A stretch of 64,000 nucleotides of DNA from a virus: positions 62,001 to 126,000 of the IMG/VR virus record IMGVR_UViG_3300023170_000007; one strand, given 5' to 3'. Shown here in pieces: positions 33,202 through 54,164 of the stretch. The position numbers and the translations under genes are program-made. The notes under the pieces were generated by a model. It saw only the letters and a program-made list of their open reading frames with translations, had not been told where the DNA came from and did no database searches. Position 1 is the stretch's first letter, and each line of letters begins with the position of its first letter.

Positions 33202-33612
33202 TTAGCCGACTCCTGCTGATCCTGAGTAGTTATTTATTAGCATATTCGATTCGATTCCAGTAAGTCCGGCCACAACTGAAGCAGTAACTCCAGTCGTCGA
33301 ATCGCTGAGCAAGAAAACACTGGAGACCCTAAGTTCTCCCTCAAAGCTTTCTTGATTATTCAAGATGAAGTAGTTGTTGTTCACGACACCTTTGACACCG
33401 TTAGCGGAGAACCCTACTCTTAGCGGTACATTTCCGCTCGAGCCGGCGAGGTTATTCGTTACCATTATGAATCTTGTGATGTTCGGGAATTCTACTTCTA
33501 TAGGTTCTTCGCTAGAGGCAGGCACGGCCAGAGATGAAGTAACATACGGCACCGCACTAATGGCGTACGAAGACACATCACCAAGTCCTCTTTTCGGCCA
33601 CGAACTGCTCAA
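33202..33612 (-). CDS. Probable virion structural protein
   Basis: A 136-residue Ser/Val/Asn-rich beta protein (NITRFIMVTNNLAGSSGNV), one base upstream of the previous gene on the minus strand. It looks like a partner fibre or decoration protein. No enzyme motif is present. On the minus strand GAGGAGGTACC precedes the start. Confidence 0.6.
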   Translation of the reverse strand: MSSSWPKRGLGDVSSYAISAVPYVTSSLAVPASSEEPIEVEFPNITRFIMVTNNLAGSSGNVPLRVGFSANGVKGVVNNNYFILNNQESFEGELRVSSVFLLSDSTTGVTASVVAGLTGIESNMLINNYSGSAGVG

Positions 33613-35289: not shown

Positions 35290-36033
35290 ATGGAAAAGAA
35301 GATTAAGAAAGTGGTGGCGTTTGATTTTGACGACACCTTGGCCGTTACGAACTCACACGTAGGGATAAGGTCTAATTTACTCGAGAATGCTTTCACCATT
35401 GCATCTCGTCTCGGATTAGATATCGCCTCCCGAGACGAAGACTGGATCTGGGTTAACTCGACCAACTACGAGACTTTTCTGTCTTTTTCTAGTGTGTCGA
35501 TATCTGATTTTGAATATGATTATTCAGAAACAATGGCAGTAGATTTAGATTCAGTGTCCCCAATCCCTTCAATGATTATACAGTTGAAGGAATATCTCGC
35601 AGATCCCGATTGTTTGGTAATAATCTTGACGGCAAGGGCAGGCTACACTGACGTCTGGAGTCCTGTGAATAAGTGTGTAATTCCCTCCACAAACAGAGAG
35701 GGTATCGCTTCGTTCCTTAATTCACAAGGAATTATCATTCCTGATCACCACATCCATACCGTAGGTGATGTAGCTGCTGAAGGTGGTCTTACATCAGTGG
35801 CTAAGGCGAATGTTTTATCTCATTATGCGATCGCCTACCAACCTGAGGAAATCATATTTTATGATGACAGCGAGAGAAATATCGCTCGCGCGTCCAAGAT
35901 ACACTTGAGAGAAGGTGTAAATTCCAGGATCACGCTAAACTACGTAAAAGACGGTCATGTCGCACGTTCCGTCCAGAGCAATAAAGGGTTAAAACAGTGG
36001 TTGTACCGCATATTTAAGACTATGCTGGAGTAA
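35290..36033 (+). CDS. HAD-superfamily phosphatase
   Basis: A 247-residue HAD enzyme: VAFDFDDTLA (motif I nucleophile), IILTARAG (motif II) and IFYDDSERN (motif IV acids). A paralogue with the same motifs lies at 41.3 kb behind a head leader, but this copy has none. A TATAAT at 35276-35281 ends only 8 bases before ATG and the AAAGG touches the start codon, so translation initiation looks unusual. Confidence 0.8.
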   Translation: MEKKIKKVVAFDFDDTLAVTNSHVGIRSNLLENAFTIASRLGLDIASRDEDWIWVNSTNYETFLSFSSVSISDFEYDYSETMAVDLDSVSPIPSMIIQLKEYLADPDCLVIILTARAGYTDVWSPVNKCVIPSTNREGIASFLNSQGIIIPDHHIHTVGDVAAEGGLTSVAKANVLSHYAIAYQPEEIIFYDDSERNIARASKIHLREGVNSRITLNYVKDGHVARSVQSNKGLKQWLYRIFKTMLE

Positions 36034-36842
36034 TGCCTGTGAAAGACCTGAGAAAACTAGTTTCCCTGCTTTTAGAAGAAGGGTACCAAAGCCATACTTT
36101 CGAGCCCGTAGTTGGTGATATTGTTGCCAATGATAACCCAAACTGTAAGCATCGAGGATCGATTGGCAGAGTCCTAACCATCCAAGCTCTGGATAATGAC
36201 CAGGGAAAGACGGCGTCTTACGAATGCTTAAACTCTGGAGATGAGTGGGAAGAAGGTGATGTTTTAACAAAGACGCTCGATCAGTTGGTACCTGCTGTCT
36301 CAAAAGACTTCGCGTATCATATGACGAATGGTCTAGGCATGACTGAATCGATATATCGCCCCGGTTCCAGAGCTTTTTTTGACCTCGTAAGAGAGTTTCG
36401 AGTTTTGTCTCACAGAGGAGCCTACTCACCCTCCTACTTCGAGTCGTACTATCTTTTTGAGACTGACTTGGGCGAATATGGTATGTATGATGGTCACCCG
36501 GTACCGCTTGACTGGCCAATGCCAGATGAAGACCTTTTCGAAGCAGAATATAAGGGCCGGGATGTCGACCTGAATTCTCCTATGAGATCTTCTGGGCCTA
36601 AGAAGTACAAGGTCTACACCAAGAATGATAAGGGTAACGTTATCCAAGTTAACTTTGGAGACGCCAAGGGTGGGTTATCAGCAAAGATGGACGATGATGA
36701 TGCCCGAGCGAACTTTGCTTCTCGGCACAATTGTGATAGTAAAGCAAAGGAAGATAAGACCAAGCCAGGCTACTGGTCCTGTCGGCTGCCCAGGTACTGG
36801 AAAGAGCTTGGGTTTAAGAAGAATAGTTATAGATTTTGGTAG
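36033..36842 (+). CDS. Two-domain protein with head-leader-like N terminus
   Basis: A 269-residue protein starting one base inside the previous stop. The leader PVKDLRKLVSLLLEEG fits the amphipathic helix plus LLE pattern. The centre (~residues 20-160) is unassigned. The C terminus (KYKVYTKNDKGNVIQVNFGD, then RHNCD and YWSCRLPRYW) matches a domain widespread in marine phage proteins (DUF5872-type in my memory). Function unknown. Confidence 0.6.
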   Translation: MPVKDLRKLVSLLLEEGYQSHTFEPVVGDIVANDNPNCKHRGSIGRVLTIQALDNDQGKTASYECLNSGDEWEEGDVLTKTLDQLVPAVSKDFAYHMTNGLGMTESIYRPGSRAFFDLVREFRVLSHRGAYSPSYFESYYLFETDLGEYGMYDGHPVPLDWPMPDEDLFEAEYKGRDVDLNSPMRSSGPKKYKVYTKNDKGNVIQVNFGDAKGGLSAKMDDDDARANFASRHNCDSKAKEDKTKPGYWSCRLPRYWKELGFKKNSYRFW

Positions 36843-36848: not shown

Positions 36849-37631
36849 ATGAGACCATTTAAACAAGTCACGATATCAGAGGGCGTTTTTGTTAGGGAGT
36901 TTTCTGGCGATGTAGACTCAGAAGAGCTCGTCTGGCACCGTGATCAAGAAGACAGACTTATTACGGTGACCGAGTCTGCTGGCTGGAAGATTCAGCGTGA
37001 TAATGAGATGCCCGTGGAGATGAAGTCTGGAGATCAATTCTTTATTCCTGCCCTCGAGTGGCACAGGGTCATCAAGGGCACCGGAAGTTTGTTGATTGAA
37101 GTCGACACCAAGGCCGCGCATCCAAGACAGTACGGGGCATCTCAGGGCTCGAAGCGTGATAAACAGCTTGACCAGACCAAGAAGGATCTAGAGAAAGCAA
37201 AGCAACTTCGTAAGGACGGAAAATCAAAGCAAGCTGATGAGCTTGAGAAAAGAGCATATGCCCGCCGGGACCGCATGGAAAAGCAACAAAGAGAAAAGAA
37301 AGGGTTCGAAAACACTCCTCGTTCCGATACCAAGAAAGAGTCAATCGATAACGACGATGCAGTTTTAAGAGCTTTTGTGGAAGAGCTTCTTCTTTCTGAG
37401 AAGAAGACGAAAATGTCTAAGAAGACAGAAAAGGCTTTGGAGAAAAAAGCGAAAGAAAAGGGATACACTCTTGGATCTGTCAAACAGGAATACAGGAAGG
37501 GTCTCGGCGCTTATTATAGCAGCGGGTCTCGAAAAGGAATGACTGCACATCAGTGGGCCATGGCAAGAGTCAATTCAGCGACTCCCTCTAAGTCTTGGGC
37601 TGTTGTTAAGAAATCGAAGGCAAAGAAATGA
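36849..37631 (+). CDS. Cupin-like protein joined to a basic domain by an internal leader motif
   Basis: A 260-residue protein. Residues ~1-85 look like a cupin (QDRLITVTESAGWKIQRD, GDQFFIPALEWHRVIKG). A charged linker follows. DDAVLRAFVEELLLSE (~residues 174-189) copies the head-leader pattern internally. The last ~70 residues contain GLGAYYSSGSRKGMTAHQWAMARVNS, a motif common in phage proteins (DUF5824-type in my memory). Cleavage at the internal LSE would release the basic domain. Confidence 0.6.
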   Translation: MRPFKQVTISEGVFVREFSGDVDSEELVWHRDQEDRLITVTESAGWKIQRDNEMPVEMKSGDQFFIPALEWHRVIKGTGSLLIEVDTKAAHPRQYGASQGSKRDKQLDQTKKDLEKAKQLRKDGKSKQADELEKRAYARRDRMEKQQREKKGFENTPRSDTKKESIDNDDAVLRAFVEELLLSEKKTKMSKKTEKALEKKAKEKGYTLGSVKQEYRKGLGAYYSSGSRKGMTAHQWAMARVNSATPSKSWAVVKKSKAKK

Positions 37632-37996
37632 AAGTTACAAAAACACATTTGAAGCAGCTGATTGAAACAGCGGTTTTAAAGGAACAAGTTAGGGGATTGC
37701 TCATAGAGCGGATGTCTGTGGCAACAGTTAGTGACATCACAAGATTTAGACCATCGATAGAAGAGTGGGCTGAAGTTCTTGTGGATGAACTACAGAAAAA
37801 AGCTGAGAGGATGAAGGGGCTTGATGATAAAAGGCGGAATAGCATTATTACTATGCTGGTTGATGCAGTCGCCAAGTCTTTGATCAGCTCGACAGGTTCG
37901 ATGACGGTCTCTAGTCTTGAGCGACAGAAAAAAGACAAAGAAGAAGAACAATACAAAAAGATGAGAGACTCAAGGCGTTACGGATATAGCGGATAA
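37628..37996 (+). CDS. Small helical protein with head-leader-like N terminus
   Basis: A 122-residue helical protein. The first ~25 residues (KVTKTHLKQLIETAVLKEQ) fit the leader pattern with LIE and LKE sites. ATG overlaps the previous stop. The C terminus is charged and Tyr/Arg-rich. Function unknown. Confidence 0.55.
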   Translation: MKVTKTHLKQLIETAVLKEQVRGLLIERMSVATVSDITRFRPSIEEWAEVLVDELQKKAERMKGLDDKRRNSIITMLVDAVAKSLISSTGSMTVSSLERQKKDKEEEQYKKMRDSRRYGYSG

Positions 37997-38002: not shown

Positions 38003-38272
38003 ATGAGAATCACAAGACGACAACTTAGAGACATTATCCGTGAAGCTCTCGAGCTTGATGAAGACGTCCGCAAGCGCGGAGACGAGTGGTGTGCTTATGT
38101 CGATGACAAGCTGACCAAGGCAGAGAAAGAAAACAACCCCAAGAAATATAAGGGTAAGAAGGTCGGAAGTGTCCAGCGAACCAAGTCAGGCAAAATCAGG
38201 ATGAAGGCTCGTGCTTGCTACAAATCAAAGAAAAAGGCCAACAATGCAATGGCCGCAGCAATGATGGGATAA
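38003..38272 (+). CDS. Small basic protein with head-leader-like N terminus
   Basis: An 89-residue protein. The leader RITRRQLRDIIREALELDE has an IRE site and resembles leaders I recall from marine phage proteins. The rest (EWCAYVDDKLTKAE, KARACYKSKKKANNAM) is basic and could bind DNA inside the head. Function unknown. Confidence 0.55.
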   Translation: MRITRRQLRDIIREALELDEDVRKRGDEWCAYVDDKLTKAEKENNPKKYKGKKVGSVQRTKSGKIRMKARACYKSKKKANNAMAAAMMG

Positions 38273-38275: not shown

Positions 38276-38620
38276 ATGTCTACTAGCCCGGAGCTTTACA
38301 CATATCGAGCGTTCGTTAGGAAAGTGTACGATGGGGATACGGTCACAGTTGACGTCGATCTCGGGTGGTCAGTTGTGCTCAAAGCTCAAAAGATCCGCCT
38401 CGTCCGCATTAATGCTCCAGAAGTTCGTGGAGAACAGCGCACGGAAGGTCTAAAATCTAGAGACGCTTTACGAGACAAAATCGGAAACAAGTGGGTAAAG
38501 ATCAAAACTGAAAAGGATAAGAAGGGTAAATTCGGCCGATGGCTCGGAGAGATCTGGCTTGAAGACGAGTGCGTCAATGATTGGCTTCTCAAGGAAGGTC
38601 ATGCTGAGGAGTATAAATGA
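38276..38620 (+). CDS. Thermonuclease (staphylococcal nuclease-like)
   Basis: A 114-residue SNase-fold nuclease. VYDGDTVTVD carries the calcium-binding Asp, RLVRINAPEVRG the catalytic Arg, and KFGRWLGEI the second Arg region. No signal peptide or head leader is seen, so it probably acts in the cytoplasm or is packaged by other means. Its stop overlaps the next ATG. Confidence 0.85.
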   Translation: MSTSPELYTYRAFVRKVYDGDTVTVDVDLGWSVVLKAQKIRLVRINAPEVRGEQRTEGLKSRDALRDKIGNKWVKIKTEKDKKGKFGRWLGEIWLEDECVNDWLLKEGHAEEYK

Positions 38621-39912
38621 GTCTACTGCTAGAATACAGTAAGTACAATCCTGTGATAAGGGATAGAAGCTATATCACTGAAGTTTTAGGGATTAAAGTC
38701 CCTCTGTACGAGTCGTATGAGTACTATACTCCAGAGCTACAGTCAAGGATTATTCGAGAGCACTTGCTTCTTGAGGGCTTCTTTGACGGTTTAAAGAGAC
38801 TGAAGGATGACGCTCTATTATTCGGTAAATCTCTTAAGCAGATAATCACTAAACCTGACCTCATTGGATCGTTTGTGGCGGCCCTCAATAAGATGGTACT
38901 TAACAAGATGATTAGACCGATAGGGTCTTTTCTTAAGATGGTCAAGGAGAAGCTTACTGAGTTGGGGGCGGACAAGTTTCCGACGTTCATAAAGTTTGCA
39001 GACGGCTTGCTTACAAGCCTCAATAAGATCTTAGAAAAAGTGAATGGTCTAGATGGGTGGAAGAAAGCTGTGGGAGCGATGAGCTTAGCATTATCCATGA
39101 AATACATCTGGAACGAGATCGGTGAGCTGATCGAAGAAGGTCAAAAGAAGATTGGAGAAGTGGTACCAGCTTTTGACATAATCAAAGCAGCAGCGGAAGG
39201 AGCTGCTGAGGCCGCAGGCGATAAACTGGAGAAAGCCAAGGAGGCTGTAAAGGGTCTTTTGAGCTGGCTGAAAGAGCAGATAGTAGAGAAAGCCGGTGAA
39301 TTTATAAAAGAGAAGCTTAAGGGTCTAGCTACGTCTGTTTTAGGGTCTGCGATATCAGGTGGTGTTAAAAAAGTCTGGGACACCCTTACAGCTCTTTACG
39401 GAGGAGCGAAATTTGTTATGGATACGTTAAATCCAGCGTTCAAGCGTTTTACACACAAAGTGACTGCCGAAAGTACACTTCGTGAATACGTAAGAGAGCT
39501 TTTATCTGAGCAAGCCAGTTACGGGTCAGCAGACGGCCAGTCTCGGATTGTCAAAGTCAATAACATGAAGATTCGTATAGACTTAGAAGATCTAGACTAC
39601 AGAGCCACTCAGCACTCTAGAGAGCGTCAGCACCGACATAAGGATTCTTCCGGCCGCGGATTCAAGATATCGGGTGATTCCATCCAGAGAGCTATTGACG
39701 CTGCAATTGGTAACATCATAAACGACTATGCCAATGGCGAACTCAGGAACAACGAGCGGTTCTTGATCGCCGCGAAAACAGGGAAAGGTGACCCGCTGAA
39801 TATTGTTGGCGCTCTGAATATGCAGAAGGGTCCTGACGATTTTGCAGTTATTACAGTAATGAGAAAGCAGAATTTTATGTCTGATCTGCCGACGTACGAG
39901 GTGAGTCTATGA
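38617..39912 (+). CDS. Helical protein with internal leader motif and C-terminal domain
   Basis: A 431-residue protein. The N-terminal ~270 residues are long amphipathic helices with hydrophobic patches, possibly membrane- or DNA-interacting. Near residue 285 is STLREYVRELLSEQ, almost the same as the leaders of the following genes but internal. The remaining ~130 residues form a separate domain (QSRIVKVNNMKIRIDLEDL, TQHSRERQHRHKD, PDDFAVITVM). Processing at LSE would give two products. Confidence 0.6.
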   Translation: MSLLLEYSKYNPVIRDRSYITEVLGIKVPLYESYEYYTPELQSRIIREHLLLEGFFDGLKRLKDDALLFGKSLKQIITKPDLIGSFVAALNKMVLNKMIRPIGSFLKMVKEKLTELGADKFPTFIKFADGLLTSLNKILEKVNGLDGWKKAVGAMSLALSMKYIWNEIGELIEEGQKKIGEVVPAFDIIKAAAEGAAEAAGDKLEKAKEAVKGLLSWLKEQIVEKAGEFIKEKLKGLATSVLGSAISGGVKKVWDTLTALYGGAKFVMDTLNPAFKRFTHKVTAESTLREYVRELLSEQASYGSADGQSRIVKVNNMKIRIDLEDLDYRATQHSRERQHRHKDSSGRGFKISGDSIQRAIDAAIGNIINDYANGELRNNERFLIAAKTGKGDPLNIVGALNMQKGPDDFAVITVMRKQNFMSDLPTYEVSL

Positions 39913-40217
39913 AGCTGTTATCATGGCTCAAACATCGATTAAGCCACAAACTAGAACATTTCTCCCTAGAAAATCTTAAACGTTTCCTGAAAGAAAACGG
40001 TCTCGCGTTTGTTGTTATATTTCTAGCGTGGGAGATTATCGAGGATGTACTTTTCCCGATCCTCTTTACCGTTTTAGGAACATACGTCCACCCTGTGTTT
40101 TACGCAGGTGTTCCAGCAGCTTGGCTCCTTTGTTTACACTGGCTAGCAGTACCACTGATGTGGGGTGCATGGGTAAAGATTAGAGGAAAAAGGAAAGACA
40201 ATGAGCCTTCTTCGTGA
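39909..40217 (+). CDS. Small membrane protein
   Basis: A 102-residue protein with an amphipathic basic N terminus (SWLKHRLSHKLEHF) and hydrophobic helices around AFVVIFLAWEIIEDVLFPILF and AAWLLCLHWLAVPLMWGA. ATG overlaps the previous stop region; its 3' end overlaps the next gene by 17 bases. No family recognised. Confidence 0.55.
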   Translation: MKLLSWLKHRLSHKLEHFSLENLKRFLKENGLAFVVIFLAWEIIEDVLFPILFTVLGTYVHPVFYAGVPAAWLLCLHWLAVPLMWGAWVKIRGKRKDNEPSS

Positions 40218-40725
40218 ATACATCAAAGAGATCCTAAATGAGGGTGTTGAGTTCCATGAGCTTGATTCGCCCTTAACCTATAATAGATCACGTAACGTGA
40301 AGCGCTTGGCATATTGTGATACATCAGTCACCGAACCGCCAGAAGGTCATGACACATATTTCACGGAATATCAGAGGATGGAAAGATATGGAAAAACCGG
40401 CCGGCGTCTGAAGAAGCCACGAAAAGGTGAGCTAATCCCAGGAGTTTCGAATGTTTGTGTTATCGGCTTTCTTGACTATCACCACTACGGTAAAACTGCA
40501 GAAGGAAAGGACATGTGGTACATTGACTACATGAAGACCCGGGGTGATTCAACAGGTCAAGGCGTTGCCAGTAAACTCATAGATGAATTCTTTGAGAGGT
40601 ACGTCGATCCAGACGGTGGGTACGTTCACTTCGGCAAGATGATGAGAAAAGAGATCGGGCATCTTAAAGACAAGATGGCCGAGAAGTACCCTAATGCAGA
40701 AGTAATCGGGGCTGTGAATTATTGA
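40201..40725 (+). CDS. GNAT-like acetyltransferase with head leader
   Basis: A 174-residue protein. The leader SLLREYIKEILNE ends in the cleavage pattern LNE. The mature part has VCVIGFLDYHHYG, then TGQGVASKLIDEFFE, which fits the acetyl-CoA loop (RxxGxG/A) and following helix of GNAT enzymes. Substrate unknown. If packaged, it could modify host proteins at the start of infection. Confidence 0.6.
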   Translation: MSLLREYIKEILNEGVEFHELDSPLTYNRSRNVKRLAYCDTSVTEPPEGHDTYFTEYQRMERYGKTGRRLKKPRKGELIPGVSNVCVIGFLDYHHYGKTAEGKDMWYIDYMKTRGDSTGQGVASKLIDEFFERYVDPDGGYVHFGKMMRKEIGHLKDKMAEKYPNAEVIGAVNY

Positions 40726-40797
40726 TGAGACTACTTCGCGAATACATAAGAGAGCTGCTGAAAGAATCTGTTGATCCCAAGATCATGTCAATGATCG
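40725..40797 (+). repeat. Leader-encoding direct repeat, copy 1 of 3
   Basis: The ~73 bases coding for the leader plus SVDPKIMSM recur almost unchanged at 41845-41917 and 44283-44355. Shorter versions, limited to the leader, open the other genes of the cassette. Such repeats would let homologous recombination swap cargo domains behind a constant leader. Confidence 0.75.
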
Positions 40798-41303
40798 ATC
40801 GTGCAGAAAAGGCTGGCTTCAAGGTCGTTGTTAGGAGTGGTTATACGGCTGTGTACGACCCTAATATCGATGTTTCAGACTGGTATGAGGGCTATATTGG
40901 TCCAGCAAACAGGGTAGCAGGTATATCTTGGAACCCAAGTCCGGGAGCACATGGGCAACCTTGTTCTGGCGCCAAGGAAGTATCAGTTTCCGGCGCCAAA
41001 GAATTCGGGATGGGTCCATTAGCTTATGACGTTGCGATCGAAGCTTCGGGTGGTCTAATGTCTGACAGGCTGGAGGTTTCGAAAGACGCAAGAAATGTGT
41101 GGAAACATTACATGAAGAAGCGACCTGACGTGATAATCCAACAACTTGACAACCTGAAAAACGAGCTCACCCCAGAAAGAGAAGACAACTGTGATCATCC
41201 AGATGGATTTTCGGTTAGCTCACCACTTACAAAAATGTACTCTAAGATTGGAACGCCAGTCATGGATGAGCTGCGACGACGAGGGATGTTGGAAGAACAA
41301 TGA
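40725..41303 (+). CDS. Paralogue family member A with head leader
   Basis: A 192-residue protein beginning RLLREYIRELLKESVDPK. It shares leader, SVDPKIMSMIDRAE, GPLAYDVAIEASGGLM, SKDARNVWKHYMKKRPDV and GTPVMDELRRRGML blocks with the proteins at 41.8 and 44.3 kb. The central region between residues ~30 and 75 differs strongly between copies. No known family. Start ATG 40725 overlaps the upstream TGA. Confidence 0.65.
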   Translation: MRLLREYIRELLKESVDPKIMSMIDRAEKAGFKVVVRSGYTAVYDPNIDVSDWYEGYIGPANRVAGISWNPSPGAHGQPCSGAKEVSVSGAKEFGMGPLAYDVAIEASGGLMSDRLEVSKDARNVWKHYMKKRPDVIIQQLDNLKNELTPEREDNCDHPDGFSVSSPLTKMYSKIGTPVMDELRRRGMLEEQ

Positions 41304-41848
41304 GACTACTTCGTGAGTATATAAGGGAAATCTTGAGTGAGAACAAGCTGCGTGTCTTCGATTTTGATGACACACTTGCTGTCACTGATTCCATGATTAT
41401 ACTTACTAAAGCGACGGGTGAGCAGATAAAGCAGACTCCTGGAGAGTGGGCCATATACATACCTGAACCCGGCGATGAGTTCGATTACAGCGAGTTCGGC
41501 GGCGAGTTAATGAACCCTCGAGAAATCAAAGACTACATGAATATCCTCCGCCGCGTTTTGGGAGCAGGTACAGACGGTCGCAAAGCTGTGATCTTAACTG
41601 CTCGTGCTGAAGTTGCTCGACAGGGCATCATTAACTTTTTACAAGACATTGGTCTCAACGTAAACGACATTGAGATTGTAACGCTTGGTGAATCCGACCC
41701 ACAATTTAAGGCGCGATGGATTGAAGACAAGATAAATAGCGGTTATGACGATGTGTATTTTGTCGATGACTCTGATAAAAATATAGCGGCTGTGCAAGCG
41801 CTAGCTGTGAAATATCCCAATATAAAGTTGAGGACACAACTGGTATGA
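41300..41848 (+). CDS. HAD-superfamily phosphatase with head leader
   Basis: A 182-residue protein. The leader RLLREYIREILSE is followed at once by NKLRVFDFDDTLAVTDS, the HAD motif I. VILTARAEVA is motif II and VYFVDDSDKN motif IV. This is a leader-bearing relative of the 35.3 kb HAD protein. Possible targets are phosphorylated nucleic acid ends or nucleotides. Confidence 0.8.
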   Translation: MRLLREYIREILSENKLRVFDFDDTLAVTDSMIILTKATGEQIKQTPGEWAIYIPEPGDEFDYSEFGGELMNPREIKDYMNILRRVLGAGTDGRKAVILTARAEVARQGIINFLQDIGLNVNDIEIVTLGESDPQFKARWIEDKINSGYDDVYFVDDSDKNIAAVQALAVKYPNIKLRTQLV

Positions 41849-42462
41849 AACTATTGCGCGAATACATAAGAGAGCTACTGAAAGAATCTGTTGACCCCAA
41901 GATCATGTCAATGATTGACAGAGCTGAAGCTGCAGGTTACAAAGTCAGACTGTTTGTGGTCCCAAAGCAGGGAGGATCTGTCAGGTTGGTTGAACCCGGT
42001 GACAAACCTCTACGACTGGACGGCAAAAACGCAATAGGTTCGGTTGAATGGAGAAAACCAAAGTTCAGCGATCATGGCAATTGCTCAGGCGGACAAAGCG
42101 TAGGTTGGTCTGAAGCTGATGGTGGATTCGGGCCGCTGTTATATGATGTTGCGATCGAAGCATCAGGCGGTTTAATGCCCGATAGATTCGAAGTATCCGG
42201 TGAGGCAGAGGCAGTGTGGGATAGATACATGAACTCTCGTTCTGATGTTATTGTTCGCCAGCTGGATATCTTACCTGACTACGAAGAACCACAGATCACC
42301 CCCGACAATCCCAACGATGATTGCAGCCAAGTTCCAGCGCACGACATGCTGAAGGACAAGTGGCATACATCTTCCCTCAGCAAGATATACAGCAAGTCAG
42401 GTACTCCCGTTATTGATGAACTGATCAAGCGCGGCATGTTGATAGATAATAGGACAGTGTGA
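41845..42462 (+). CDS. Paralogue family member B with head leader
   Basis: A 205-residue relative of the 40.7 and 44.3 kb proteins: leader KLLREYIRELLKE, SVDPKIMSMIDRAEAAG, GPLLYDVAIEASGGLM, and GTPVIDELIKRGML. The middle is Gly/Pro-rich and the Cys-containing loops (HGNCSGGQ, DDCSQ) match those of copy A. Unknown function. Confidence 0.65.
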   Translation: MKLLREYIRELLKESVDPKIMSMIDRAEAAGYKVRLFVVPKQGGSVRLVEPGDKPLRLDGKNAIGSVEWRKPKFSDHGNCSGGQSVGWSEADGGFGPLLYDVAIEASGGLMPDRFEVSGEAEAVWDRYMNSRSDVIVRQLDILPDYEEPQITPDNPNDDCSQVPAHDMLKDKWHTSSLSKIYSKSGTPVIDELIKRGMLIDNRTV

Positions 42463-42824
42463 TGAATCTACTGCGCGAGTACGTAAGGGCTTTGCTTACT
42501 GAAAAGACTATCGCCATTGGCCAATGTTATCCCCATGCGATCAAGATGGCTCAACAGTCATCTGATGAAGAGTGGGATGATCTAGACAAGTTCAAGGTGG
42601 TCCACGGAAAAGTGACGAACAAATGGAATGATGAGTCATATGAGCATGCTTGGGTTGAAAAGGGTGACATGATATTCGACTGGCAAACACACGTAACAAA
42701 GCCAGAAGGGATTCCAAAAGCTGTGTACTACGATAACTTCCAACCTGAAGCTTATGAAGAATACACTGCTGAAGAAGCTATAATCAATTGTACTAAGTCA
42801 GGGCAAGCGGGGCCTTGGAGATGA
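42462..42824 (+). CDS. Papain-like/transglutaminase-like protein with head leader
   Basis: A 120-residue protein. After the leader NLLREYVRALLTE it has IGQCYPHAIKMAQ, VVHGKVTN, YEHAWVEKGD and IFDWQT. Cys, His and Asp in this order fit a papain/transglutaminase-type triad. Hydrolase or amidase activity is inference. ATG 42462 overlaps the upstream TGA. Confidence 0.5.
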   Translation: MNLLREYVRALLTEKTIAIGQCYPHAIKMAQQSSDEEWDDLDKFKVVHGKVTNKWNDESYEHAWVEKGDMIFDWQTHVTKPEGIPKAVYYDNFQPEAYEEYTAEEAIINCTKSGQAGPWR

Positions 42825-43327
42825 ACCTGCTTCGCGAATACATAAGAGAGTTACTGACCGAGGAATCTACTACTGTTTCTCTACACAGAGGGTCAACTGA
42901 AGATTACTTCAGAGTGAATTTCAGCGTGGACGGTAGAATGGTTGGTTATGCAGAGGTCAACTCAACTCGTAGGTACTCGAACTGCCAAGAAAATGTTATG
43001 GAACTTGAACAATCTCCAGAGTACATTGAAGCCAAAGAACGGCACGAGGCGACAAGCAAGTGGAGCTGGTCACCAAAGATGTACGTTACGAATAACGTCT
43101 GGATCCCCAACGAAGCTGACAGAGGGAAAGGTTACGGTAAGTTGATATATCAGGCAGCCATTGACCAGGCAATTCAATACGCAAGGTCTAGCGGTGGTGT
43201 GTTTATCGGTTCGGACGCATGCGATTCTGCCGGTTCCACCTCAGCTGATGCGGGCCGTGTATGGAGTTCACTGGGACAACAGTTCGGTGCTAGCTCAGGC
43301 CAACTGATATTCGTGAGGACAAACTAA
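42821..43327 (+). CDS. GNAT acetyltransferase with head leader
   Basis: A 168-residue protein. The leader NLLREYIRELLTEE is followed by a GNAT domain: strands, then VWIPNEADRGKGYGKLIYQA, where RGKGYG is the acetyl-CoA loop, and the YARSSGGVFIGSDACDSAG region. Different from the other acetyltransferase in the cassette. Target unknown. The leader may be cut after LTE. Confidence 0.7.
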   Translation: MNLLREYIRELLTEESTTVSLHRGSTEDYFRVNFSVDGRMVGYAEVNSTRRYSNCQENVMELEQSPEYIEAKERHEATSKWSWSPKMYVTNNVWIPNEADRGKGYGKLIYQAAIDQAIQYARSSGGVFIGSDACDSAGSTSADAGRVWSSLGQQFGASSGQLIFVRTN

Positions 43328-44286
43328 TGAACCTACTCCGCGAGTACATAAGAGAGCTGCTGTTAAAAGAAGTCAAGTCCTCTGAACTTCCATGGGCAGA
43401 ACTGTCTGATATTTTACGTAAAAAATTTCCTGGGTTTGGCGAAGAAGTAGAGATGCCGGCAGGAGGGAAACGTAAGCCTTTCGAGATAGAGCAGAGGACG
43501 GTGGCAGATAGGGGTCCCCAGAGATTGGCTAGCTTTACCATCGGATATGGTGACTTCTCCTACGATAAGCCTGCCACTAAATTCTCTGACGCTGATTTAG
43601 ACGCTGTCGTTGATGAGATCGATAAGTGGGCTGCTAATTTTGGATTACATGTGGCAAGAGACCAACTCGCCATGAATAGCAATATCGCAATGCTCAAAGT
43701 CGGGCTGATGGATCTGGAGACAGACGAAGTCGAGAAACCAGCGAAACTATATCATGTAACAGATCCTGTGACAGCTGAGACGATTCTCTCGCAAGGTTTA
43801 GAACCTCAGTCAGCTAGACGGCGAGGCAAGGCTGGAAAAGCAGGTGATATGATGGGTGCAGCAGGGAGAAGTTACCCTGGCAGAATATTCATGTTCACAG
43901 ATGCACAGACTGCCCTCGCTAGAGCTTCGAAGACTGCAAAGATTATGCATAGGCTTTCCTTTGTTAGGGATGTCTTAGAAGACGAAGCAGAGTACGAGAA
44001 GGGCGCCTCTCAAACAATCGGTAAGTCAGAAACCCCAGTTGTTTTAGAGATTGACGGATCTGCTGTCGGTAAAGTAATGGCAGATCCAGATTTTGAGATG
44101 GGTAAGGGTGCCGTATTCTCAACAGATGCAGTTCCACCATCTGCGATATCGAAGTATAAAGATGTAGACAGGGGCAGCTTCGAATACGATTGGCGAGATA
44201 ACTATAAAGTAAGAGAGATGCTCAGAAGTGATTATGGCGGCACAATGTCAAAAATCAAAGCATGGGAGCAGAGCCAAGGATTATGA
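43327..44286 (+). CDS. ADP-ribosyltransferase-like protein with head leader
   Basis: A 319-residue protein. Leader NLLREYIRELLLKE. An N-terminal domain of ~120 residues is unassigned. From ~residue 137 it reads AKLYHVTDPVTAETILSQGL, RIFMFTDAQTAL, PVVLEIDG and VFSTDAVPPSAI, the order seen in ART/KptA-fold proteins (HxT, then a Phe/Tyr strand, then Glu). T4 packages the ADP-ribosyltransferase Alt in its head, so this could be a functional counterpart. Confidence 0.55.
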   Translation: MNLLREYIRELLLKEVKSSELPWAELSDILRKKFPGFGEEVEMPAGGKRKPFEIEQRTVADRGPQRLASFTIGYGDFSYDKPATKFSDADLDAVVDEIDKWAANFGLHVARDQLAMNSNIAMLKVGLMDLETDEVEKPAKLYHVTDPVTAETILSQGLEPQSARRRGKAGKAGDMMGAAGRSYPGRIFMFTDAQTALARASKTAKIMHRLSFVRDVLEDEAEYEKGASQTIGKSETPVVLEIDGSAVGKVMADPDFEMGKGAVFSTDAVPPSAISKYKDVDRGSFEYDWRDNYKVREMLRSDYGGTMSKIKAWEQSQGL

Positions 44287-44834
44287 AACTACTACGCGAA
44301 TACATAAGAGAGCTACTGAAAGAATCTGTTGATCCCAAGATCATGTCAATGGTTGATAGACTCGAAGCGGACGGGGGATATGTTAGAATTAGCAAGAACG
44401 CTGCAAGAGTTATTATTGATGGACACAATGTCGCGTTTGTCCAATTCGAAACACCGGGAGTTTGGTCCAAAGGTGAGTGTTCGGGCGCGAAAATAGTATC
44501 TTACTCTGAAGCGGAAAGAAGTTACGGTCCTTTAGCATATGATATCGCCATTGAAGCAACAGGCGGACTTGCACCAGATCGCGAAGAAGTTTCAGGAGAT
44601 GCAAAAAACGTTTGGTCTTACTACGAAAAGAATAGACCTGATGTAACAATCGCCCAGCTAGATGATGAAAACAATATGTTGACCCCTGACGGTGGAGACA
44701 ATTGCAATCAGAAGTCTGCCATGCTGGATGCAGAAAGTTACCACTTTGATAGATCACCGCTCAGTAAGGTATACAGGAAGTCAGGTACGCCCGTTATAGA
44801 TGAGTTGCGGAAACGAGGGATGTTGAAGGAATGA
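44283..44834 (+). CDS. Paralogue family member C with head leader
   Basis: A 183-residue third member of the family seen at 40.7 and 41.8 kb. It shares leader KLLREYIRELLKE, SVDPKIMSMVDRLE, GPLAYDIAIEATGGLA, SGDAKNVWSYYEKNRPDV and GTPVIDELRKRGML. The start is ATG 44283 after AAGGA, overlapping the upstream TGA. Function unknown. Confidence 0.65.
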   Translation: MKLLREYIRELLKESVDPKIMSMVDRLEADGGYVRISKNAARVIIDGHNVAFVQFETPGVWSKGECSGAKIVSYSEAERSYGPLAYDIAIEATGGLAPDREEVSGDAKNVWSYYEKNRPDVTIAQLDDENNMLTPDGGDNCNQKSAMLDAESYHFDRSPLSKVYRKSGTPVIDELRKRGMLKE

Positions 44835-45679
44835 ATCTACTTCGTGAATACATAAAAGAGGTATTAAGCGAGGTAACAGCTCTTCCTCAGGAATACTTCA
44901 CTGCAATCGATGCCGCTGTGTCTTCTTCAAATTTTTGGGAAGAGCCGAATTCTCAAGATGATATAGACTACTATGAGTCTAAGGCAGGAGGGGTCATGGC
45001 TACTCCTGCCGCAGAGGCTCTTTCTGAGGCTCTAGAAGGGGCTATGGAAGAGGTTGGTCTAGACATGGACATATTGGTTAGGTCACACGATACAGATGAT
45101 CTGATGGGAATGTCTCTACATCCCGAGCATCCTGCTTGGCCTAATAGATGGCTCATCGACGCGAAGTGGTACGTCTCAAAAGAACGCCCGGGAAGAAGCA
45201 CTATTGACATAGAGATGATGACATCAGAGGATGAAGACAACATTTCTCAAGCTCTGAACACCAGTGAGCTAGTCCGTCATATTACAGCAACAGTGAGACA
45301 CGAGCTAGTACATTATCGACAGATGAAAAAACAGGCTGCCCATAAGGGGCTGGATGACACCGCCGCTTTTGAGGAAATGCTGAAAGATCCCCGCCAGATT
45401 CCGCCGGGCTCCGCGGATGATCCGGAGTGGCAGAAGAAGTACTTGAGTTCTCATATAGAGATCGATGCTCACGCTCACGATGCCGCCGAAGACTTGATCG
45501 CTGTATACTCCGCTAAAGAGATTGACGCAATACTCAGTAAAAAGGTTGATCTGTCTGATGATAGACTGCCCAACGCTGTTAAGCACTATATCGAGGTTCT
45601 TGGGCCCGACGATAAATCAACTCGTAAGTTCATGAGTAAGCTTTATACACAAGTCGAAAAGATGAAAAGTAGAAGATAA
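44831..45679 (+). CDS. HExxH metalloprotease-like protein with head leader
   Basis: A 282-residue protein. Leader NLLREYIKEVLSE. Near residue 157 it has TVRHELVHYRQ, a zinc-peptidase HExxH motif, with an acidic SHIEIDAHAHD region ~50 residues later that could supply the third ligand. The first ~150 residues include a strand-rich part typical of these phage metalloproteases. A packaged peptidase could act on cell wall or host proteins. Confidence 0.65.
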   Translation: MNLLREYIKEVLSEVTALPQEYFTAIDAAVSSSNFWEEPNSQDDIDYYESKAGGVMATPAAEALSEALEGAMEEVGLDMDILVRSHDTDDLMGMSLHPEHPAWPNRWLIDAKWYVSKERPGRSTIDIEMMTSEDEDNISQALNTSELVRHITATVRHELVHYRQMKKQAAHKGLDDTAAFEEMLKDPRQIPPGSADDPEWQKKYLSSHIEIDAHAHDAAEDLIAVYSAKEIDAILSKKVDLSDDRLPNAVKHYIEVLGPDDKSTRKFMSKLYTQVEKMKSRR

Positions 45680-45708: not shown

Positions 45709-46347
45709 ATGGACGTTCTAAGACAGTTTATAAGACAAATAATTCTTGAGCAAATAGAGCAACCCGCTCCTGAAGCCTCTTTACCAAAGGGTGAATGGGT
45801 TTCTGTTGAGGCAGGAGACCCTATGAGATCTGTTATCGTTGACGACCTTTATGATATGCTGCAGTCGACATACGCTCCAATTGGTGGTCACTTTAAAGTC
45901 AAGAAGCCGTCCGACCTTGAAAGGTACAGGTTCTGGGTAGTTGCAGACATCGACGAAGATCCTGAACCTGACGTCGCTTTATTTGCGAAGCCTGATATCG
46001 GTGGTACGAAGATGGGCGCCGCCGCGAATGATGGTACAGCTGCAGCAGCTAACGCTTACAAAGACAAATCTTCTGAGTTGAGAGCTGGCGGCTCTATTGG
46101 CTCTGGCTCGAACTGGTGGGGTGAAGTTAGCGGCAAGCCCGCTTATGCGATGCTTAAGCGTGGTGCGCCAGCAGTCGAGGATGAAGCTGTAGTAATGCAG
46201 TTACTTGCTGGGGATGATATTATCTTTCACGGAGCTCATCCTGACCCGAATGCTCCAGCCCTTTTTAAGAGCGTGAACGGGTGGTATACCAAGAAGTTCG
46301 GAGCAAAGTCATCTACCAAGATTATTCTTGGGTCTCCGAGTTTGTAG
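45709..46347 (+). CDS. Unknown protein with head-leader-like N terminus
   Basis: A 212-residue protein. The leader DVLRQFIRQIILEQ is a divergent form ending ILE. The rest holds SNWWGEVSGKPAYAMLKRG and FKSVNGWYTKKFG, a pattern I have the impression is common in marine phages, but I cannot name it. It ends the leader-bearing run. Confidence 0.6.
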   Translation: MDVLRQFIRQIILEQIEQPAPEASLPKGEWVSVEAGDPMRSVIVDDLYDMLQSTYAPIGGHFKVKKPSDLERYRFWVVADIDEDPEPDVALFAKPDIGGTKMGAAANDGTAAAANAYKDKSSELRAGGSIGSGSNWWGEVSGKPAYAMLKRGAPAVEDEAVVMQLLAGDDIIFHGAHPDPNAPALFKSVNGWYTKKFGAKSSTKIILGSPSL

Positions 46348-47258: not shown

Positions 47259-48080
47259 GTGAACGAATCTACAATAAGAACCTACGTACGTGAGTGTCTT
47301 CTAGAGTCCAAAGAGAAAGTACGCGGTTATGTGAAACCAGACTCTAGTTTCTTTACTCTTGACGAGTGGCAGCTGGCTGTTGAGATGCTCCTAGAACTCC
47401 AGAAAGAAGGTGTCGATACCAGAGGTGGACAGTATACAGACCCAAGACTCATAGCGATCGTAGAGAGATATTTCGGATACCAACTAAACGATGAGGTCGA
47501 GAGATGGGACCTTCTAACAAAGAAGAACGTCCTTGATTTTGTGGAGGACTTTGTCAATCACCGCTTTTGGGGGTTGAGGAAAGAGTTTGGTCACTACTTT
47601 AAGGACATAAATCGCTTGCGATTTGCGTATTTCTACTCTCGAGGAGATCTAGAGCCATATGTCCTGATGGATGATGAGTTCACTACTCAATTGTACGGTT
47701 CCACCAACAACCCAAAAGAACTTCTCCACTACACAACAATCAGAGGTGTTGAGAGGATTCAAAAAGCCATTGATTCTGGTTCTGCGTTTGATATATCAAC
47801 GTTTACAGTCGCAGAGAGACCGTTTTTTCGTCCCGATTCGAATATCATCATAAAGCTTTTGGGAAATGTTCGGGCTGGCTTCAGAAGCGACATAAAATCT
47901 ATGGCTGTTGATACCGGCCGCCGTGCTTGTAATCTTTATCGTCTAGAGTACCCTGGCGAAGACTTCAATAACATCTGTTACGAGTTAGAAACCTGTGACG
48001 GTGAGCTAAGGACGTCTTTGTGGAATGAATATATTGCTACTCCAATCGAGATATTGGAAGTTTTGAAGGTGAAAGTATGA
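47259..48080 (+). CDS. Unknown protein with head-leader-like N terminus
   Basis: A 273-residue protein with GTG start 7 bases after AAGGA. NESTIRTYVRECLLESKEK fits the leader pattern with LLE. From ~residue 150 it has ELLHYTTIRGVERIQKAI, then FDISTF and TSLWNEYIATPIEIL, which could be a divergent ART-like fold (His, then Glu late), but this is weak. It overlaps the cysteine synthase start by 4 bases. Confidence 0.55.
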   Translation: MNESTIRTYVRECLLESKEKVRGYVKPDSSFFTLDEWQLAVEMLLELQKEGVDTRGGQYTDPRLIAIVERYFGYQLNDEVERWDLLTKKNVLDFVEDFVNHRFWGLRKEFGHYFKDINRLRFAYFYSRGDLEPYVLMDDEFTTQLYGSTNNPKELLHYTTIRGVERIQKAIDSGSAFDISTFTVAERPFFRPDSNIIIKLLGNVRAGFRSDIKSMAVDTGRRACNLYRLEYPGEDFNNICYELETCDGELRTSLWNEYIATPIEILEVLKVKV

Positions 48081-51058: not shown

Positions 51059-51136
51059 GGGGCTATAGCTCAATCAGGTCAGAGCAACCGGCTCATAACC
51101 GGCAGGTTGTAGGTTCAAATCCTACTAGCCCTACCA
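51059..51136 (+). tRNA. tRNA with CAU anticodon (Met or Ile2), copy 1
   Basis: 78 nt cloverleaf: acceptor GGGGCTA/TAGCCCT (G1-U), D stem GCTC/GAGC, anticodon loop CTCATAA, T arm GTAGG-TTCAAAT-CCTAC, encoded ACCA. The 27:43 pair is A-C. It ends 25 bases before the tilS start, which favours tRNA-Ile2 whose C34 becomes lysidine. Elongator Met cannot be excluded. Confidence 0.9.
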
Positions 51137-51161
51137 AATGTTTAATCGGAGAAATGAATCA

Positions 51162-51815
51162 ATGATCCGACTTTCTTTTAAGCTTCCTTCTGAGATTGCA
51201 GTTGCCGTTTCTGGAGGGGCTGATTCTATGGCAGCCCTTGACTTTTTGCGACAGAATAGAAGGGTCAAGGTCCTCCACTTTAATCACGGCACCCACGGCG
51301 CCTCCGCCGCCGAGAGGGTAGTAACGAAGTATTGTGATCTACACAATCTAGAATTGGTGGTAGGCCATCTTGATGAATCCCCTGATTCGGGACAGTCACT
51401 TGAAGATTTCTGGCGTCAAGCTCGTTATTCTTTTTTTAGTGACAGTTGCGGTGGTCTTCCTGTAGTCACATGTCATCACCTTGACGATGTGGCTGAGACA
51501 TGGCTGTTCACCTCTTTGAATGGAAACCCTAAGCTTATTCCTTCTAAGAGAGACAATTACTTGAGACCCTTTCTGCAAACCCGGAAAGCCGTCTTTGAAG
51601 ATTGGTGTGACAGGAAAGACGTGGTGTATCACTACGATGAGAGTAACAACGACACGAGGTTTAATAGAAACTTCATCCGACATGAGATCATGCCTCGCGC
51701 GCTAAGGGTGAATCCGGGACTACATAAAGTTCTCCGTAAGAAGATCCAGCAAGATGTTGACGCTCATAGTTCTATCCACCAAGAAATGCGGATGATGTGG
51801 GCAAGCCTCACATAG
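51162..51815 (+). CDS. tilS: tRNA(Ile)-lysidine synthase, catalytic domain only
   Basis: A 217-residue PP-loop ATPase. AVSGGADSM (residues 15-23) is the SGGxDS loop, and HFNHGTHG, CHHLDDVAETWL, and NNDTRFNRNFIRHEIMP follow the TilS order. E. coli TilS has 432 residues; only the N-terminal catalytic domain is present. It converts C34 of tRNA-Ile2(CAU) to lysidine, so it decodes AUA. ATG 51162 follows GGAGA. The CAU tRNA gene is directly upstream. Confidence 0.88.
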   Translation: MIRLSFKLPSEIAVAVSGGADSMAALDFLRQNRRVKVLHFNHGTHGASAAERVVTKYCDLHNLELVVGHLDESPDSGQSLEDFWRQARYSFFSDSCGGLPVVTCHHLDDVAETWLFTSLNGNPKLIPSKRDNYLRPFLQTRKAVFEDWCDRKDVVYHYDESNNDTRFNRNFIRHEIMPRALRVNPGLHKVLRKKIQQDVDAHSSIHQEMRMMWASLT

Positions 51816-51830
51816 TAACAGAGTTTAAGA

Positions 51831-52091
51831 ATGCTTAGTATTAAGACGGGTGATATTGTCAAGTTTAAACCAAAGTACTATGGCCCTAACCAACCTGACC
51901 AGTGGGTAGGTGTCACAGGTATAGTACTTGAGGTGATTGATGCCGACGGCTCGAACACTGGATTAGAAGTGCTAGTTCAGCATCCTGATGAGCCAGCACC
52001 GATACCTGTTTTTGCTTTTGTTTCTGACGTAGAAAAGGTCAACTGTGAAGTCTGTGATTGTTATCCTTGTGATTGCCACCCTTGGGACTAA
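51831..52091 (+). CDS. Small beta-barrel protein with Cys-rich tail
   Basis: An 86-residue protein. KTGDIVKFKPKYYG and WVGVTGIVLEVI form a small barrel. The last ~15 residues (NCEVCDCYPCDCHPWD) hold five cysteines in CxxCxCxxCxC spacing, possibly a metal site. No family recognised. Confidence 0.5.
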   Translation: MLSIKTGDIVKFKPKYYGPNQPDQWVGVTGIVLEVIDADGSNTGLEVLVQHPDEPAPIPVFAFVSDVEKVNCEVCDCYPCDCHPWD

Positions 52092-52093
52092 AG

Positions 52094-52642
52094 ATGATTA
52101 CGTATGATTTCCCTCCTTCTACTCGTTCAATGACACGTAGAGAGAGGTATGCTGAAAAGCAGAAGACAGCAGAGTATCTACCAGTCATTATCGGCTGTGT
52201 TAATTTCGAGCATGATGGAAACCTTGCTTTCGTGATGCGTGCCGCTGCATGTTTTGGCGTGAAAGAGGTCCATGTTGTCGGATCTGTGCCCCACCGCGCA
52301 GAGCTAAAGAAGCTTTCTGGATCAATGTGCGATCTCGTAGAGATTGTTCAGCATAAGAGTCCTCGTTCATTTATCGAGTGGTGTACAGATAACCACGTGA
52401 AGATCGTAGCTGCTGAGCTTTGCGAAAAGTCTGAAAAGCTTCGTGATTATAATTTCATGTTTGAGGGTCTTACATGCATCTTTACCGGACATGAAACATC
52501 TGGAGTCCCTGGAGAGATTATTCATGTTGCCGACTGCGTAGAGATCGATATGAGAGGCCCAGGCTTTTGCTTGAACACCGCTCAGACGGCGAATATCATG
52601 TTGTATGAAGCATCAAAGCAGTACATCGGAGGTGCAGCTTGA
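52094..52642 (+). CDS. SpoU/TrmH-family 2'-O-ribose methyltransferase
   Basis: A 182-residue SPOUT methylase. Motif 1 is FEHDGNLAFVMRAAACFG, motif 2 CIFTGHETSGVPGEII and motif 3 CLNTAQTANIMLYEA, all in place for the knotted SAM site. Targets of the family are ribose 2'-hydroxyls in tRNA or rRNA. It lies near tilS and the tRNA cluster, so phage tRNA is a likely target. ATG 52094 is the first Met next to the conserved part. Confidence 0.88.
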   Translation: MITYDFPPSTRSMTRRERYAEKQKTAEYLPVIIGCVNFEHDGNLAFVMRAAACFGVKEVHVVGSVPHRAELKKLSGSMCDLVEIVQHKSPRSFIEWCTDNHVKIVAAELCEKSEKLRDYNFMFEGLTCIFTGHETSGVPGEIIHVADCVEIDMRGPGFCLNTAQTANIMLYEASKQYIGGAA

Positions 52643-52812
52643 AAGTAAAAGATCTTATCAAAATGTTAGAGCTCCAAGACCCTGAAGAGCGAGTCGTGAT
52701 GAAGAACCTGCAGGCAGACCCTCGTGAGCGACCTCATGTATATGAACAGTTCAGAGTATATGAGCGTGACGGAGACGTCGTGGTCGACGCTTACAGGAAG
52801 GTCTATAAGTGA
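52639..52812 (+). CDS. Small charged protein
   Basis: A 57-residue protein with TTG start after GGAGG (52628-52632), overlapping the SpoU stop and the next GTG. VKDLIKMLELQDPEERVVMK begins with a short helix and continues with beta strands (YEQFRVYERDGDVVVDAY). Small proteins of this kind are common in phages; function unknown. Confidence 0.55.
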   Translation: MKVKDLIKMLELQDPEERVVMKNLQADPRERPHVYEQFRVYERDGDVVVDAYRKVYK

Positions 52813-53060
52813 TTCGTAGCTGCGAATTCATAGAAGCGCACAATGTCGATGCGCTCGGAAATAAGATCAAGTCAATATGGGTCCCTCGCCCGACAAGCTG
52901 GCTGGGAGGCTGGGCTCGACATCAGTGGCTTAAGAAACACTTCGGTCAAGAGTGCTCGATTGCGAGCCCTGAGTGGTGGAAAGTTTTGACAGACCGACAC
53001 GGTCCACCAAAGGTACTTATCGAAGAAGACGGAGTTTACAGAGTGGAGAGCAAAGAATGA
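52809..53060 (+). CDS. Unknown protein
   Basis: An 83-residue protein starting GTG and overlapping the previous stop (GTGA). It contains VPRPTSWLGGWARHQWLKKHFG. No family recognised. It overlaps the next gene by 4 bases. Confidence 0.5.
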   Translation: MIRSCEFIEAHNVDALGNKIKSIWVPRPTSWLGGWARHQWLKKHFGQECSIASPEWWKVLTDRHGPPKVLIEEDGVYRVESKE

Positions 53061-53206
53061 AGTGGGAAGTTAGACCCCTCGAGCCCGACGGCTGGGGAAT
53101 TTTTTTGATGCAGAAATTTTGCAAGACCGATGAACCTGTCTGTTATGCGAGGTCAGCCTCGAAAGAAGCAGCCGAGCGTATGGTCAAGCGGATGAACGAA
53201 GGATGA
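53057..53206 (+). CDS. Small protein, unknown
   Basis: A 49-residue protein (MKWEVRPLEPDGWGIFLMQK) with GGAGAG upstream of ATG 53057. The last residues (SKEAAERMVKRMNEG) form a helix. Short overlaps with both neighbours support translation. Confidence 0.5.
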   Translation: MKWEVRPLEPDGWGIFLMQKFCKTDEPVCYARSASKEAAERMVKRMNEG

Positions 53207-53502: not shown

Positions 53503-53551
53503 AAGTCGTCACCTAAGTCTAAACAAGAAGTCATAAATAATCTTCTAAAGC

Positions 53552-53580
53552 GTGTAAACGAACGGCCACTGTGATATAAT
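53552..53580 (+). promoter_or_regulatory. Phage promoter GTGTAA-N17-TATAAT for the tRNA cluster
   Basis: GTGTAA (53552-53557) and TATAAT (53575-53580), spacer 17. The transcript would begin near 53587 with a TTGGTGG leader able to form a hairpin with CCACC (53610-53614), and continue into the introned tRNA-Arg gene. Confidence 0.65.
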
Positions 53581-53659
53581 CTAAATGTTGGTGGGGATGG
53601 AAACTAACCACCGCGACCTTTGAAAACTTAATAGCGAAAAGCATTTAGTTATTGTGAAT

Positions 53660-54120: not shown

Positions 54121-54164
54121 CTAAAAGTAAAAGTTGGTGGAAATACCACACAACTTCAAAATAC

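Follow-up and report, generated by a model that had tools for sequence, protein, structure and literature searches.

The 64,000-nucleotide stretch analysed here (hereafter the window) covers bases 62001-126000 of the 180,375-bp virus record IMGVR_UViG_3300023170_000007 (G000), which we read to its ends and which, judging from its genes, is a large, uncultured T4-like phage. Between window positions 40201 and 45679 lie nine adjacent plus-strand open reading frames (ORFs) with differing bodies, all of which start with M-x-LLREYI(R/K)ELL-x-E, a peptide that we call the T1 leader. We describe this leader, the bodies that follow it (its cargos) and its relation to the phage head. Coordinates marked G000 are those of the whole record, and all others are those of the window.

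One leader before nine differing cargos

A 12-residue position-specific scoring matrix (PSSM), trained on the nine leaders and a few other leader copies, scored the nine at 32.0-36.5 bits, compared with 13.7 bits for the best match in the reversed six-frame translations of the record. Nine adjacent genes with one shared leader, as described in the first-pass annotation, are thus borne out. The leader start was taken as the nearest ATG, so that positions 40725, 42462, 42821 and 44283 replace upstream TTG, GTG, TTG and ATG starts, respectively. All nine leaders exist, but the count of nine is too low, since three further copies adjoin, two of them diverged and N-terminal and the third internal. 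A tenth gene (45709..46347, +) carries the diverged leader MDVLRQFIRQIILE, and in contig locus L011 a canonical T1 leader precedes a related cargo. The gene at 47259..48080 (+) starts with the diverged copy MNESTIRTYVRECLLE, and its cargo start is similar, as compared by eye, to one behind a canonical T1 leader in L012 (KVRGYVKP / RVRGYIKP). The internal copy (TLREYVRELLSE) occupies residues 287-298 (bases 39475-39510) of a 431-aa ORF at 38617..39912 (+).

Five of the nine cargos look GNAT-like. Gene 1 (40201..40725, 174 aa, leader MSLLREYIKEILNE) and gene 6 (42821..43327, leader MNLLREYIRELLTE, homologs in L009 and L013) match Acetyltransf_1 with E 0.0061 and 0.0051, which agrees with the GNAT folds first assigned to them, but both matches are sub-threshold. 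Genes 2 (40725..41303), 4 (41845..42462) and 8 (44283..44834) carry copies 1, 2 and 3 of one family (U family). The triplication noted earlier stands, and the family looks GNAT-like: on an AlphaFold2 (AF2) model of copy 3 (pLDDT 80), the body gave a modest match to GNAT folds, with a best Foldseek E of 0.012 and a best VIA Z of 6.7 (GCN5; root-mean-square deviation 3.4 over 109 residues), where Z under 8 is not decisive. The VIA chains listed were mostly acyltransferases by title. In this model the leader helix (residues 4-13) is of low confidence and residues 14-17 form one of two segments under pLDDT 50, which fits a removable tail.

The HAD-like call for gene 3 (41300..41848, leader MRLLREYIREILSE) is supported by matches to phrog_415 (polynucleotide kinase, E 8.9e-10) and DUF2608 (E 1.6e-6, above the cut-off). 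Gene 7 (43327..44286, leader MNLLREYIRELLLKE) carries an ART/KptA-like cargo with weak matches to PTS_2-RNA (E 0.25) and phrog_5470 (E 0.12) on one region; residue 14 of its leader is Lys and LxE is retained one residue later (LLLKE), so that the putative cut site is shifted by one. Gene 9 (44831..45679, leader MNLLREYIKEVLSE) carries a metallopeptidase-like cargo with the HExxH motif HELVH and a Tox-MPTase3 match (E 0.038) below the cut-off. The ART and HExxH assignments thus have weak Pfam matches and, for gene 9, the motif on their side, but remain sub-threshold. Gene 5 (42462..42824, leader MNLLREYVRALLTE) has a small cargo in which Cys, His and Asp are invariant across nine aligned sequences. 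The papain-like fold once assigned to it was not confirmed, as Pfam, PHROGs and the fold search returned nothing usable (AF2 pLDDT 64, best Foldseek E 0.66), and we claim no fold. Neither the U family nor the gene 5 family, each searched as a profile, matched a PDB entry up to E 1.

The first-pass annotation had also suggested a search for the leader in related phages. The T1 DNA pattern, M-x-L-L-R-E-Y-(I/V)-x-E-x-L, which ends at residue 12, was found at 36 stretches in 25 contigs of a viral collection of 2.9 million contigs, and at 8 stretches in 6 contigs among 257 Gb of bacterial and archaeal genomes. Five of these six cellular contigs have N-terminal leaders before cargos that by eye are like those of the viral contigs, and they look like phage DNA inside metagenome-assembled genomes (MAGs); an S77 protease gene is present in the genomes behind three of the five. 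In the sixth (L109) no leader ORF was seen and the match looks like chance. The T1 pattern is thus nearly confined to phage-like DNA, and a bacterial origin of the leader is rejected. The T1 cassettes on PBIO01000025/16 (L104, L106 and L107) and NHDW01000006 (L110) belong to MAGs named Halobacteriovorax and Methylococcaceae, which are possible but weak host leads, as the binning may be wrong. A 19-residue ORF that is almost a bare leader (MNESMLREYVRTLLIEQSG) recurs at L019 9463, L026 4267, L042 1419 and L043 3854, and may be what is left of a gene or a tag on its own. Searches of cultured phages with the T1 and T2 leaders alone (tblastn) gave no match, and no description of this leader family was found in open-licence PMC papers searched by title or abstract start.

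Conservation up to residue 14 and exchange of cargos

The set of T1 proteins combines leader ORFs at the pattern loci with those of six records that were covered completely or almost completely (G000, G004, G007, G012, G016 and G018). The 148 proteins were reduced to 89 unique ones (first 45 residues) and 80 non-redundant ones (cargo under 80% identity), which exclude GTG-start or internal leaders; three of the 80 are ORFs or fragments no longer than 25 aa. Glu14 is present in 73/80, and every one of these 73 has Leu or Ile at residue 12. The information content, 3.28 bits at residue 14, drops to 0.65 at residue 15, though the scan pattern ended at residue 12. Six of the seven proteins without Glu14 keep (L/I)xE displaced by one residue, compared with 1/73 of the others (Fisher p=1.6e-7). 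Altogether (L/I)xE ends at residues 13-15 in 79/80 proteins, which confirms that the end of the leader fits this cut-site motif. The end of conservation at residue 14 and the one-residue shifts favour Glu14 as the predicted cut, though sequence alone is no proof.

A shared N-terminus might also be a remnant of recombination or duplication, in which a DNA cassette of start region and first codons was copied before many genes without a function of the protein. The three U-family copies in one cassette and the adjacency of all nine genes would agree with such copying. In the leader codons, however, pS is 0.72 and pN 0.14 (33 pairs, with pairs inside the triplicated family excluded); the leader peptide has therefore been under selection while its DNA drifted, and recent DNA duplication as the origin of the shared leader is ruled out. 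The recurrence of one peptide before many different cargo groups, across 25 records, and the exact conservation boundary at Glu14 also argue against a remnant, which we regard as very improbable.

A second leader, T2, reads MKITKRQLRRII(K/R)E and, like T1, ends with (I/L)-x-E at residue 14. By the strict motif it heads six genes of G000, 18 of G018 and 13 of G016; by a loose motif it heads nine genes of G000 plus core1, a small gene of the head operon. Among 52 unique T2 copies from the six genomes, Glu14 is present in 50 and (L/I)xE ends at residue 14 in 47, while ten have an additional (L/I)xE site ending at residue 22. The T2 DNA pattern occurs at at least 120 stretches in viral contigs. 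Strict motifs of both classes mark 17 genes in G000 (11 T1 and 6 T2), while five relatives have between 4 and 24 such genes each; the T1 count of G000 is one too low, because the heuristic ORF caller missed gene 6 through a wrong start, and one strict-motif gene in G004 is core1 itself. A further group of small genes headed by MKITKxQLRRIIKEE (T2) lies at G000 141850-150539 (L006/L007), and this leader is also frequent in viral contigs, G018 and G016.

Upstream of the T1 cassette, the window contains a T2 gene at 38003..38272 (+) with leader MRITRRQLRDIIREALELDE and a cargo beginning DVRKRG, a T2-type gene at 37628..37996 (+) with leader MKVTKTHLKQLIE...LLIE, and a gene at 36033..36842 (+) with another leader (MPVKDLRKLVSLLLEE), whose cargo is T1-led in G007 and L017. 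A staphylococcal-nuclease homologue (38276-38620, Pfam E 4.8e-9) stands amid these leader genes, itself without a leader.

The cargo of the T2 protein at 38003 is 90% identical over 58 residues (E 9e-27) to that of a T1-led protein of L023, and the homology begins directly after LxE on either side. A second T2/T1 pair, G018_226571 and L014_2402, is 39% identical over 88 residues (E 1e-17), with homology beginning further in. A P-loop cargo, which matches Zeta_toxin below the cut-off (E 0.00099), occurs in three genomes behind three leaders, and GVYDPG or GIYDPG immediately follows LLAE, LVLE or LLSE. The join is therefore exactly at LxE in two cargo families with different leaders. Homologs of the gene 3 HAD cargo without a leader were found in five other genomes. 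Given these swaps and leaderless homologs, leader and cargo are separable modules. The proposed exchange of cargo domains behind the leader is thus visible directly in the sequences, both in the T1/T2 swaps and in the P-loop cargo, and T2 appears interchangeable with T1.

The head operon and a candidate capsid-targeting leader

A T4-type head operon at G000 5069-15881 encodes TerL, portal, one unknown protein, S77 protease, several small genes, a scaffold-like acidic protein and the major capsid protein (MCP). The portal gp20 and MCP gp23 matches are phrog_213 and phrog_138, and the scaffold was named from its place and composition, without a database match. A gp21-like protease elsewhere in the genome, which the first-pass annotation had marked as something to look for, is present at G000 9565-9993 (PF03420 Peptidase_S77, E 8.5e-27; phrog_207, E 8.7e-49) and can be aligned to T4 gp21 (5JBL, E 4.3e-14). 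The order protease, small genes, scaffold, MCP is kept in the six genomes. The MCP of G000 aligns to T4 gp23 (E 2.8e-29), and the nearest MCPs in cultured phages are remote, for example that of Microcystis phage Mel-JY01 at 36%. As side observations, the ORF at window 33202-33612 (-) starts with MSSSWPKRGLG, which by eye resembles the head-operon gene at G000 10095 (MSSSWPKPGLN), and G016 has two neighbouring major-capsid-like genes at 176269-180150 (L098) whose first 75 residues, as printed, are identical.

Several head proteins have an LxE site of their own. In 6/6 genomes the pro-region of the MCP ends with L-(R/K)-E; a weak N-terminal alignment (13.6 bits) puts this site close to where T4 gp23 is cut, immediately ahead of the part that aligns to mature gp23. 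In the scaffold, (L/I)L-x-E is present in 5/5 genomes, with G016 left out for an incomplete gene call. The small gene core1, two places after the protease, starts with MAK(I/V/M)(T/S)(K/R)xxLK(S/G/T)(L/I)VKECL(F/V)EIL(L/S/A)E and keeps LxE in 6/6 genomes. A T2 profile ranks the six core1 copies 15, 22, 28, 31, 32 and 34 among 1566 non-T2 proteins, and the proteins ranked above or between them are nearly all T2 variants. Through this T2-like N-terminus of core1 in six genomes, the T2 leader is linked to head-operon proteins.

The S77 protease was found in 10/10 T1 records of at least 119 kb (10/25 overall) and, among the matches listed, in 11/11 further T2 records of at least 102 kb; one 101-kb T2 record, which is also a T1 record, has none. 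It was found in 0/12 control records, six of which are at least 100 kb; this is a small control, selected by length among the matches listed, and the search behind it matched nothing in its own controls either.

We propose, with a probability of roughly 0.78, that the leader is a removable capsid-targeting sequence, by which the cargo would be targeted to the head, trimmed and probably delivered to the host. During prohead assembly, the amphipathic N-terminal helix would bind the scaffold or core and bring the cargo inside, where the S77 prohead protease would cut after the Glu of (I/L)-x-E, normally residue 14. The trimmed enzyme would stay in the head beside the DNA. Upon infection, the phage DNA would probably be accompanied into the host by these enzymes, whose immediate targets would be host proteins, RNA or signals, in the manner of T4 Alt and IPI. 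Cargos have been exchanged behind the leaders within a clade of large phages. Several separate sequence tests support a removable head-targeting leader, namely the Glu14 boundary, the one-residue shifts, the (L/I)xE of T2 at residue 14, the joins at LxE, the LxE sites of the head operon and the T2 likeness of core1. We infer core binding, cutting, packaging, delivery and the enzyme activities from what was computed, that is, the leader, its near-confinement to phage-like DNA, its cut-site-like conservation, the exchange, and a protease and head operon in one record; the sequences support packaging and cutting well, though both are unproven.

Several observations weigh against this proposal. 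One T1 protein, G012_238470, has no LxE nearby, and one cargo swap, G016_266163, a fourth relative with the cargo of window 36033, lacks LxE at the join (FIREVM before QSHT). [LIVM][LI]xE also occurs at residues 8-28 in 181/1528 other proteins of the six genomes (126/1528 at residues 29-49 and 92/1353 at residues 50-70), and LxE alone is therefore not diagnostic. The next small gene after core1, core2, is less T2-like (ranks 25, 27, 42, 53, 64 and 91). The 15/25 T1 records without S77 are all about 101 kb or smaller, and co-occurrence with S77 may reflect T4-like ancestry alone. Some 85 kb separate the cassette from the head operon. Two sites in the record match the T4 late-promoter string TATAAATA, none near the cassette or the head genes; one adjoins the T2 gene 150150 on the opposite strand. 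Whole-protein tblastn in cultured phages, which covered the U family, gene 1 and gene 9, gave no match at E 0.01. Finally, the leader is nearly a repeat, LLRE-YIRE-LLxE, with (L/I)xE also at Glu6 and often at Glu10, and a plain helix pattern could favour Glu14.

The near repeat of four residues would suit a helix that is never cut and serves docking or assembly in another phage complex, such as one at the host RNA polymerase, the membrane or the replication compartment, with Glu14 on the third turn of an amphipathic helix; many of the cargos could work in the cytoplasm. However, the one-residue shifts keep (L/I)xE yet break the four-residue phase, and conservation ends abruptly at residue 14. 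Glu10 is weaker than Glu14 (49/80 T1 proteins), and, together with the shifts, this therefore disfavours a plain helix pattern as the reason for Glu14. The likeness of the T2 helix to a small gene near the protease in 6/6 genomes and the presence of LxE in MCP and scaffold also argue against a docking helix, which we regard as improbable.

The nature of the cargos bears on what the packaged proteins would do. The 89 unique T1 proteins form 35 single-linkage cargo groups, some of which are merged by joined domains and three of which are ORFs or fragments of <=25 aa. Among the 77 of the 80 proteins with at least 60 aa, Pfam matches at E<=0.01 fall into 12 families, each in one to three members, and most members have no match; the families include GNAT, RNase T, phosphatidylserine decarboxylase (9.6e-17), DUF2608/HAD, ART-PolyVal, DUF3990 and 2'-5' RNA ligase. 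Leader-bearing proteins that enter the prohead and are trimmed could serve head assembly or DNA condensation only, and be undelivered or inactive in the host; T4 core proteins are described as packaged and cut, mostly leaving the head (PMC9026906). Some cargos, however, match enzymes (HAD, RNase T, phosphatidylserine decarboxylase, ART-PolyVal and GNAT), and cargos vary widely among phages, unlike assembly factors. A role in assembly alone thus seems unlikely, if a little less so than a docking helix.

Some ORFs join several cargos. Nine T1-like sites (score >=16) lie beyond residue 100 in eight ORFs of six genomes, compared with one site in reversed proteins at all positions. By eye, (L/I)xE is at the usual place in five of the nine, one residue later in two and further on in two. 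In 6/9, xxE(S/N/D) directly precedes the leader, with Glu two residues upstream. An in-frame Met is present at that spot in 4/9, so these may be fused genes or internal starts. The joined-cargo ORFs are possibly polyproteins with excised linkers. A bolder and tentative extension is a general protein-loading system in these phages. Each phage would tag as many as two dozen proteins for the head with two disposable leaders that can replace one another and that stem from, or imitate, core proteins of the prohead. Some of these ORFs would then be true polyproteins, in which the prohead protease would cut at internal tags and so set several effectors free within the capsid, ahead of delivery.

Elsewhere in the window, the phage encodes a Cpn60/TCP-1-type chaperonin (23709-25286, Pfam E 1.6e-56) and seven tRNA genes (51059-56171; two Met-CAT, Asn, Glu, Leu, Gln and Thr), near which antisense ORFs are probably spurious.

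Relation to known systems

A short, removable capsid-targeting leader before variable bodies is already known in T4; what differs here is the scale, the two leader classes, the enzymes among the cargos and the clade-wide exchange. The T4 internal proteins (IPI, IPII, IPIII and Alt) and gp21 are described as sharing a short N-terminal propeptide that ends with (L/I)xE before variable bodies (PMC9026906, PMC3012670), and those of T-even phages as highly diverse and conserved only in the capsid-targeting sequence (PMC3012670). The T4-type head operon with an S77 protease is likewise common to both systems. T4 has three internal proteins plus Alt, whereas G000 has 17 strict-motif leader genes and its relatives 4 to 24. 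Unlike T4, the present system uses two classes of leader, has enzymes among its cargos, joins some cargos in a single ORF and shows exchange throughout a clade. The proposed likeness of the leader to the letters of the T4 capsid-targeting sequence is at most an analogy.

DarB of phage P1 is also reported to have an N-terminal signal that sends the protein into the head (PMC9024508), but it is one large protein, whereas here a 14-residue exchangeable leader stands on many genes. In the giant phages phiKZ and SPN3US, a prohead protease is described as cutting after Glu in a short motif, and many head proteins as being ejected into the host (PMC5694885). The same source reports two paralogs with identical N-terminal 15 residues and, for SPN3US, an AxE motif and three propeptides of 124-127 residues; here, in contrast, the shared N-terminus stands on unrelated folds, and the leader has 14 residues and (L/I)xE. 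Polyvalent proteins are described as DNA-delivered effectors with ART and GNAT domains (PMC7824862, PMC5512222), and one T1 cargo matches Pfam ART-PolyVal. They are reported to hold 2 to 15 domains per polypeptide, whereas here there is mostly one body per gene behind a short leader: counted from the leader ATG, the nine window ORFs are 120-319 aa long and none has more than one Pfam region, and a few relatives join several cargos in one ORF.

If our proposal is true, the proteins that a phage of this clade delivers from its virion could be named from the genome sequence alone, and a set of "hypothetical" genes of large uncultured phages would become a readable list of effectors. The leaders would then add another short-tag packaging system to the ones known from T4 and P1, and would serve as a search key for new anti-defence and takeover enzymes.

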